Shown piece by piece: positions 24,671 to 27,158 of a DNA stretch of 64,000 nucleotides. Numbering within the stretch: the stretch's first letter is position 1; each line of letters opens with the position of its first letter. Source of the stretch: Microcaldota archaeon (lineage in GTDB: Archaea; Micrarchaeota; Micrarchaeia; Micrarchaeales; Micrarchaeaceae); NCBI GenBank assembly GCA_021797575.1, contig JAJZZN010000003.1, positions 62,001 through 126,000 of the forward strand. The letters are read 5' to 3'. The position numbers and the translations under genes are program-made. Under the pieces are notes generated by a model. The model searched no databases and was not told the DNA's origin. It saw only the letters and a program-made list of their open reading frames with translations.

Positions 24671-25279
24671 TTACTTGCTTTCTACCTTAGCCTCGAAATC
24701 CTCTACCTTGTATGTGAACTCCTCGTTGGCCTTTATGCTGCCGCGCTCCTTGAGGACCTCCCTTGCGAGCAGGTAGTACACGAAGGCTAGCGCCCTCCTG
24801 CCTCTGTTGTTCACAGGTATGAGGAGATCCGTGTATTTCGTCGAATTGTCCGTGTCGCTCAGCGCGATTATCGGTATGTTTATCTTGCTGGCCTCCTTTA
24901 TGGCCTGCTTCTCGTTCCTCGAGTCGCTTATGAAAAGCAGCGCTGGCTCCATGAAGTCAGGCCTGCCGGGGTTAGTGAATATGCCTGGGTTGACCCTTCC
25001 CTCCAGGAACTTGGCCCCTATGAGATCGGCGAACTTCTTTGCTGCGTATATTGCATATATCCTAGAAGCGGTTACGACAACCTTGTTCGGGTCGTATCTC
25101 GCGAGCATCCTTGCCGCTATCCTTATCCTTGAGTCTATGGTCTTGACGTCAAGCAGGTAAAGCCCGTCCTCGCGTATCTTGTATATGAACCTTGACATGC
25201 CGGGCGCTTTGACCTTCGTCGCGATGTGTATTCCTTCTTCTAAGTATTCGTTTTGGTTAACGAGCAATTCATCTTCCAT
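24671..25279 (-). CDS. rps2: Ribosomal protein uS2
   Basis: A 202-residue small-subunit protein. The core GIHIATKVKAPGMSRFIYK, RPDFMEPALLFISDSRNEKQ and IPIIALSDTDNS is typical of archaeal S2. The ATG at 25279 has AAGGTG 6 nt before it; a GTG at 25288 is part of that site. The tRNA-Pro 3' end lies only 13 nt before the ATG, so the mRNA 5' end is probably made by tRNA 3' processing. Confidence 0.96.
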   Translation of the reverse strand: MEDELLVNQNEYLEEGIHIATKVKAPGMSRFIYKIREDGLYLLDVKTIDSRIRIAARMLARYDPNKVVVTASRIYAIYAAKKFADLIGAKFLEGRVNPGIFTNPGRPDFMEPALLFISDSRNEKQAIKEASKINIPIIALSDTDNSTKYTDLLIPVNNRGRRALAFVYYLLAREVLKERGSIKANEEFTYKVEDFEAKVESK

Positions 25280-25292
25280 TTTATGCACCTTC

Positions 25293-25390
25293 TGGGGCCG
25301 CCGAGATTTTCAAGTGCTTTTTGAATTCCCGAAGGTTCTCGGGTCGCCAGCACCCCAAGCTGGAAGCCTACCAAGCTAGCAGACGGCCCC
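25293..25390 (-). tRNA. tRNA-Pro (anticodon GGG) with two micro-introns in the T arm
   Basis: Acceptor GGGGCCG (25384-25390) pairs with CGGCCCC (25294-25300), discriminator A at 25293. The anticodon arm CCAGC-TTGGGGT-GCTGG gives GGG, proline. The T stem CCGAG/CTCGG encloses 32 nt instead of 7. Removing 25326-25337 (12 nt, between positions 53 and 54) and 25307-25319 (13 nt, between 59 and 60) leaves TTCAAAT, a perfect T loop. Each insert follows bulge-helix-bulge geometry: helices CCCG/CGGG and TTCA/TGAA, three-nucleotide bulges, cuts after the second bulge base. A TATA box stands upstream. Confidence 0.85.
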
Positions 25391-25415: not shown

Positions 25416-25427
25416 CATATTTATAAC
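25416..25427 (-). promoter_or_regulatory. TATA box of tRNA-Pro and uS2
   Basis: GTTATAAATATG on the minus strand, 26-37 nt before the tRNA-Pro 5' end, the right distance for transcription to begin at or just before the tRNA. Confidence 0.6.
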
Positions 25428-25446: not shown

Positions 25447-25650
25447 TCAGCTCTTGTTGCCCATCGTTATGAATTCGTCTATCAGCTCTATGTTGCTGAC
25501 GAACATGCGCCTGCAGCAGTACCTCTTTATTCCAAGGCTGTCGAGGACCTTTGCAGGGTCTTCGTGCTCCTTGTTCACTCTTTTGTCATATTCTTCCCAT
25601 TTGTCAGCAATCACTGCACCGCAGCTGAAGCATCTAACCGGCATCATCAT
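25447..25650 (-). CDS. rpoN: DNA-directed RNA polymerase subunit N
   Basis: A 67-residue Rpb10-like subunit. CFSCG near the N-terminus and YCCRRMF form the HX-type zinc-binding site of this family. The ATG at 25650 follows GGTGAT; the in-frame GTG farther up is part of that site. It comes right after uS9, the classic archaeal eL18-uL13-uS9-rpoN order. Confidence 0.95.
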
Positions 25651-25662
25651 TTTTATCACCAA

Positions 25663-27058: not shown

Positions 27059-27158
27059 TGCGAGGGGTGAGATTTGAACTCACGCAGCCACTAAAGGCAC
27101 AAGAGTTCTGATTTTCATCCTCAGTCTTGCGCATTTGACCATGCTCTGCCACCCTCGC
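27059..27158 (-). tRNA. tRNA-Leu (anticodon GAG) with a 13-nt intron
   Basis: A class II tRNA. Acceptor GCGAGGG (27152-27158) pairs with CCCTCGC (27060-27066), discriminator A at 27059. The anticodon stem is CAAGA/TCTTG, the variable stem GCC/GGC, and the T arm GTGAG-TTCAAAT-CTCAC. The anticodon loop holds 20 nt; removing 27106-27118 (13 nt, canonical 37/38 site) leaves CTGAGGC with anticodon GAG. The intron obeys bulge-helix-bulge rules (helix CTGA/TCAG, bulges GGA and AAC). It lies between rpoD and eL18 with 19 and 18 nt gaps. Confidence 0.93.

Follow-up and report, generated by a model that had tools for sequence, protein, structure and literature searches.

The window analysed here, a stretch of 64,000 nucleotides from a Micrarchaeota archaeon, belongs to a MAG of 659192 bases in 34 contigs, estimated to be 76.8% complete. 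On its minus strand, at positions 25293-25390, it carries a tRNA-Pro(GGG) gene of 98 nt, in which two short introns are packed into the T arm. Read on that strand, the first half of the gene is GGGGCCG.TC.TGCTAGCTTGGTAGGCTT.CCAGC-TTGGGGT-GCTGG.CGAC.CCGAG and the second half is [AACCTTCGGGAA]TTCAAA[AAGCACTTGAAAA]T.CTCGG.CGGCCCC.A, where the bracketed elements are the introns. The acceptor stem pairs GGGGCCG with CGGCCCC, the anticodon arm CCAGC-TTGGGGT-GCTGG presents the anticodon GGG, and the gene does not encode CCA. The T stem CCGAG/CTCGG encloses 32 nt, and taking out AACCTTCGGGAA and AAGCACTTGAAAA leaves a T loop of exactly TTCAAAT. The 5' exon (nt 1-53 of the tRNA, window 25338-25390, delimited by sequence reading and by a covariance model match) holds the acceptor, D arm, anticodon arm, variable loop and 5' strand of the T stem. 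It is followed by a first intron of 12 nt at 53/54 (AACCTTCGGGAA, 25326-25337), a 6-nt exon TTCAAA (nt 54-59, 25320-25325), a second intron of 13 nt at 59/60 (AAGCACTTGAAAA, 25307-25319), and a 3' exon (nt 60-73, 25293-25306) with T60, the 3' strands of the T and acceptor stems, and A73. All these elements lie on the minus strand, and the joined exons form a tRNA-Pro of 73 nt in which the consensus form is restored.

The gene lies between two ORFs on the same strand. Directly downstream is one (24671-25288) that we take from its sequence to be ribosomal protein S2; it was matched in relatives, and among named S2 genes the closest match found, from Micrarchaeota isolate YP3.bin81, is 99% identical. 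Its start is likelier the ATG at 25279 than the listed GTG at 25288, since the latter overlaps an AGGTG that resembles the ribosome-binding site of S2 (window 25277-25290). AGGTG or CGGTG occurs within 30 nt after the tRNA in 33 of 67 relatives, so the tRNA and S2 may share a transcript. Upstream of the tRNA is a short ORF (25447-25662), presumably RpoN (RPB10); in relatives, too, the tRNA is preceded by the end of a similar ORF. The TATA-like TTATAAATAT is found at 25417-25426 on the minus strand, 27-36 nt upstream of nt 1 of the tRNA. Among 65 genes, TATA-like words occur within 50 nt upstream in 26, mostly near 29-36 nt, and at 50-100 nt in five, which weakly suggests that the tRNA gene may have a promoter of its own.

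The strongest evidence on the introns comes from the relatives, in which the orthologous tRNA lies between the end of the putative RpoN ORF and S2. The search for S2 covered 85 family genomes and succeeded in 79, of which 78 were used (G068, with an incomplete S2 match, was left out). The tRNA-Pro beside S2 is intact in 69 of the 78, an apparent remnant in two and absent in seven. A pattern identified 67 of the orthologues, G032 (both introns) and G035 (none) were added, and nine more cases, the two remnants and the seven absences, were assigned by eye. Five of the 69 intact orthologues have neither intron, four have only the one at 53/54, 30 only the one at 59/60, and 30 have both; the first intron is missing in 35 and the second in nine. 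The introns are real because all four states, no intron, one, the other or both, are found among the relatives at precisely these two sites. This bears out the sequence-only reading, which had placed two introns of these lengths at these sites from the window alone. The exons can be followed across the series to the letter. Twelve other genomes share the spliced tRNA of the window, including G036, where the 59/60 intron is the only one present. Likewise the gene of G042, which has no intron, is the same as the genes of 11 genomes with the 59/60 intron once these are spliced; the comparison set the T loop as TTCAAAT throughout, and the one exception, TTCGAAT in G014, affects none of these identities.

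Both segments are thus very probably introns of the archaeal bulge-helix-bulge (BHB) kind at 53/54 and 59/60. In 200000 shuffles of the 32-nt loop, TTC[A/G]AAT never coincided with the two 4-bp helices in register, and we regard the relatives with zero, one or two introns at the same sites as a stronger test than this. The excess over a 7-nt loop is 32 minus 7, i.e. 25 nt, and could be read as one intron of that length, a reading to which we give almost no credence: by eye, no removal of 25 nt leaves a T loop starting with TTC, and species with either intron alone refute it. A chance match and a pseudogene were rejected as readings of the window gene, and a split or permuted gene is unsupported, all exons lying in order within 98 nt. 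On the S2 tree, parsimony requires at least seven changes for the 53/54 intron and at least six for the 59/60 intron, among which gain and loss are inseparable because 33 of the 74 inner branches of the tree are open.

Selection on the introns can be read from their pairing. In the window, both have the predicted features of a BHB, i.e. a 4-bp central helix, 3-nt bulges and a predicted cut after the second bulge base. The central helix of intron 1 pairs CCCG (nt 48-51) with CGGG, and that of intron 2 pairs TTCA (nt 54-57) with TGAA; these helices, already drawn in the sequence-only reading, stand, with four of four central pairs in both window introns. Of the 29 distinct introns 1 in the family, 28 keep CGGG, and of the 48 distinct introns 2, 45 keep TGAA. 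The introns vary widely outside the positions that pair with exons, apart from a near-fixed AA as the last two bases before the 3' cut (27/29 and 46/48, respectively). The first inner pair adjoins the 3-nt bulge and no exon dictates its bases. It is Watson-Crick in 25 of the 29 distinct introns 1, against 9.9 when re-dealt, and in 45 of the 48 distinct introns 2, against 33.4, and none of 5000 re-deals reaches either value. With one intron per genus the figures are 14.2/17 against 5.5 and 20.9/23 against 14.2. At the same level the second inner pair holds in intron 2 (14.0/22.9 against 7.3 re-dealt) and does not hold in intron 1 (7.5/15 against 4.8, with 7.8 in a slid control). For the third inner pair of intron 2 there is no clear excess over re-dealing (13/34 against 9.2; one per genus, 4.6/17 against 5.1). 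Judging from this covariation, both introns are selected for the 4-bp central helix and the next inner pair. The window introns have one inner pair each, some relatives have five in a row, and by their predicted shape the former are closer to bulge-helix-loop than to strict BHB.

Archaeal introns in the D, T and acceptor arms (PMC4033280, PMC6379350, PMC12397907) as well as broad-specificity EndA (PMC6379350, PMC12397907) are described in the literature. The window genome encodes one EndA, of 388 aa, whose residues 7-388 match chain 7-387 of the ARMAN-2 EndA 4fz2 (E 5.8e-163). The catalytic Tyr-His-Lys of the ARMAN-2 enzyme, given as Y236, H251 and K282 in an excerpt of PMC6379350, is conserved at all three residues when counted along this alignment. 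By this match the protein is an epsilon2 (three-unit, ARMAN-2-type) splicing endonuclease, full length in one chain, and the link to ARMAN-type splicing drawn in the sequence-only reading stands. An RtcB ligase gene is also present.

The two introns are so close that their removal may be ordered. The central helix of intron 1 takes nt 48-51, and nt 49-51 belong to the T stem; hence the intron 1 helix and the T stem are mutually exclusive. We folded 29 of the 30 two-intron genes with RNAfold (G032 was left out). The fold with the intron 1 helix beats the one with the T stem and the intron 2 helix in 26 genes, the median margin being 6.0 kcal/mol; the converse holds in three, all from g26. At 37 C the T stem forms with a median probability of 0.01 before splicing, 0.68 after loss of intron 1, 0.00 after loss of intron 2 and 0.77 in the mature tRNA (0.01, 0.53, 0.00 and 0.63 at 55 C). 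Removing intron 1 raises it by more than 0.2 in 22 of the 29 genes at 37 C and in 18 at 55 C; removing intron 2 does so in two, and in none at 55 C. Intron 2 has the T stem as its outer helix, so on this folding model we consider it probable that intron 1 is removed first, that the exons are then ligated and that intron 2 follows.

The proposed course would be as follows. In the precursor, nt 48-51 would pair with CGGG of intron 1 and thereby occupy bases of the T stem. Intron 1 would then be excised by the epsilon2 EndA and the exons joined by RtcB, upon which CCGAG would pair with CTCGG to form the outer helix under TTCA/TGAA. Intron 2, now with its full motif, would be excised second. Joining before the next cut would keep the 6-nt exon from being lost, and the T-arm-dependent steps, pseudouridine-55 formation and end processing, would come after splicing. 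In Cyanidioschyzon merolae, cmPus4 is reported not to form pseudouridine-55 while a T-arm intron is present (PMC9602550), and this supports placing the T-arm steps after splicing.

One might argue instead that the introns are real and their order free, EndA taking intron 2 first, or either of them, by accepting the TTCA/TGAA hairpin on its own as a relaxed motif. Removing intron 1 raises the probability of the intron 2 central helix in only 12 of the 29 genes, since the hairpin of intron 2 can form without that step. The argument for an order is therefore one about the outer helix only, since RNAfold does not show the central helix of intron 2 to need the removal of intron 1. In the lowest-energy fold of the window precursor the two hairpins coexist, and the central helix of intron 2 has a probability of 0.68. 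The three g26 genes fold better as T stem plus intron 2 helix, ARMAN-type EndA accepts relaxed motifs according to sections of PMC6379350 and PMC4033280, and the four species with intron 1 alone imply that splicing of this intron is possible in a T arm that is mature in all other respects. Yet, as long as intron 1 is present, intron 2 would be without its outer helix, the median T-stem probability being 0.01, and we regard a free order as unlikely. In the same lowest-energy fold of the window gene, A52 and G53 pair with UU of intron 1, which makes a hairpin of 6 bp with the loop AACC and covers the 5' cut of this intron; A58 pairs with the U ahead of UGAA in intron 2, so that the 5' bulge there is partly closed as well. 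With these folds counting against it, the removal of intron 1 before intron 2 remains for us the probable order.

ARAGORN on the window and Rfam at its gathering threshold both missed the tRNA-Pro(GGG) gene while reporting other tRNAs; the gene marks a kind of tRNA overlooked by both finders applied to the window. We built a covariance model from 19 tRNAs, of which 18 are spliced or intronless forms from the family and which include the spliced form of the window gene itself. This model finds the gene at full length with 81.2 bits (G000:C21:87293-87390, i.e. window 25293-25390), a match that is partly by construction because the gene's own spliced form sits in the model. With that reservation the model aligns to the gene over its whole length. 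The sequence-only reading had named another intact tRNA-Pro(GGG), with this copy silent, as a refuting result, and no second one was found in the 76.8%-complete assembly with Rfam, an anticodon-arm pattern or the covariance model. The 29 Rfam tRNA matches in the genome, which do not comprise the window gene, include Pro(CGG) as the sole Pro; the anticodon-arm pattern, with up to three mismatches, matches only the window gene; and the five covariance model matches at 1e-9 are the window gene, Pro(CGG) and three Gly. The absence is not final, given the completeness of the assembly. The gene is predicted to work, and it is probably the only tRNA-Pro(GGG) of the genome.

By eye, we observed arm introns in other tRNAs of the same genome (L168 at G000:C3:16844, L028 at G000:C21:128398 and L029 at G000:C14:6523), among which are a tRNA-Ala(GGC) and a tRNA-Arg(TCT) with 59/60 introns and a tRNA-Gln(CTG) with what is apparently a D-arm intron. 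Within the window, ARAGORN in intron mode calls the minus-strand stretch 27059-27158 (L023) Phe(gaa); by eye it is better read as a tRNA-Leu(GAG) with a short intron in the anticodon loop.

Could the window gene be decaying or silent, with another tRNA reading CCC and CCU? The exons are perfect in the window genome and no other tRNA-Pro(GGG) was found there, so that we hold this very improbable. Elsewhere in the family such a course seems to have been taken. G083 (L103) has lost the 5' part of its S2-linked tRNA-Pro and kept only the 3' part; nearby, on the opposite strand, is a divergent tRNA-Pro(GGG) without introns, by which the S2-linked gene has apparently been replaced. G084 has just a 3' scrap of the gene, about 200 nt from a contig end. 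The seven genomes without the gene beside S2 belong to g13 and g24, and five of them (G030, G031, G070, G071, G072) carry elsewhere an intronless tRNA-Pro(AGG) (L230, L231, L235, L239, L241). In G028 and G029 only Pro(CGG) and Pro(TGG) were read, the loop TTTGGGA in these two and in G030 being read as TGG. In the single-contig G070, no GGG appears among the six model matches, which are the AGG, CGG and TGG tRNA-Pro and three tRNA-Gly.

The anticodon AGG recurs in the sister family f2, where the orthologous intron-bearing gene has it (L253-L264, L301, L315 and the pattern matches), in 61 of 79 genomes by pattern, against 0 of 85 in the family of the window. The pattern misses the gene of G209, which also reads AGG, and does not catch the g13/g24 genes, whose tRNA body differs. 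Anticodons with A34 are described as missing in archaea in the consulted parts of PMC8007984 and PMC11066159, with one exception in those of PMC8450103, a tRNA-Arg(ACG) thought to have been transferred. According to PMC11066159, AGG without inosine decodes CCU and CCC to a similar extent. Among 14 genomes searched for the deaminase family PF00383, it is present in 6, including the window's own and some of g13/g24, and was not found in the three AGG genomes of L063, L067 and L074, taken as f2 from sequence. The AGG genes bear on whether archaea really exclude A34 anticodons.

An exact pattern places the two-intron T arm of tRNA-Pro in 41 of the 301 phylum genomes, spread over 26 of 126 genera and four families; it has no match in a reversed control, and of the 30 two-intron genes in the window's family it overlooks 3. 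Relative to the sequence-only reading, it is the rarity of the arrangement that changes. At the class level we queried 80 genomes, of which 75 had an S2 match and 30 had loci that were looked at, one with 15 nt upstream. The gene is intronless in G122 and G189, has only the 59/60 intron in G172 and G173, carries longer T-loop inserts in G169, G170, G179 and G183, and has introns at 32/33 and 53/54 in G174-G178. Most other loci showed no tRNA-Pro in the stretch viewed, often only 120 nt. G184 has three introns, at 37/38, 53/54 and 59/60, and G181, a 73%-complete MAG, has a tRNA-Pro(GGG) with four BHB-type introns, at 32/33, 37/38, 53/54 and 59/60 (L251 / L327, G181:C117), which leave the anticodon on a 5-nt exon. 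In G181, G184 and G177 the central helix has four of four pairs in eight of nine introns, the 53/54 intron of G181 having three of four, and the inner pair is missing in two of the nine (59/60 of G184 and 53/54 of G177). The G181 gene also has 31 additional nt inserted in its 5' acceptor strand, and the would-be central helix of this insert has only two of four pairs in either register. Portions of PMC8450103 and PMC4033280 give three as the maximum number of introns per tRNA, and the phrase 'four introns' was not found among the matches listed for the literature on archaeal bulge-helix-bulge tRNA genes.

The intron kind, the enzyme type and the forced splicing order are already known. ARMAN-1 and ARMAN-2, from the same phylum, have BHB and bulge-helix-loop tRNA introns at noncanonical positions, which an epsilon2 EndA cleaves, and multi-intron tRNAs are listed for both in the consulted part of PMC4033280. 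The window gene or an ARMAN orthologue may already be listed in that literature. The present case differs in having two minimal introns in one T loop, separated by a 6-nt exon, and in that their presence and absence was followed over 69 orthologues. Thermoproteales are rich in multi-intron tRNAs, and two or three introns can be so close that one must leave before the second BHB forms, as described in parts of PMC8450103, the main text of which does not contain the words Micrarchaeota and ARMAN. A forced order, which we consider probable for the window gene, is described there for another phylum and another EndA type. The tRNA-Ile of Cyanidioschyzon merolae resembles the window gene in having several introns (in the D, anticodon and T arms), one of them in the T loop; yet this is a eukaryote with one intron per arm. 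The window gene is a further example of this known kind and comes with an unusually complete comparative series. With none, either or both introns, and identical exons in several cases, this series provides one tRNA body on which one can test in what order splicing proceeds, what the outer helix contributes and what short introns cost.

Tentatively, with slightly more doubt than belief, we put these elements together: an intron hot spot with gain and loss at fixed sites, a splicing relay, up to four introns and gene replacement. If this is true, the S2-linked tRNA-Pro of Micrarchaeota would be a hot spot of repeated gain and loss of BHB introns at fixed sites, in which the removal of intron 1 would build the T stem that exposes intron 2. 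Some lineages would have escaped the intron-laden gene by replacement, including by the A34 tRNA-Pro(AGG). The four introns of G181 would exceed the three given as the maximum in the consulted parts of PMC8450103 and PMC4033280, and bear on how many introns one tRNA can carry. The four-intron gene and the tRNA-Pro(AGG) may matter more than the window gene itself.
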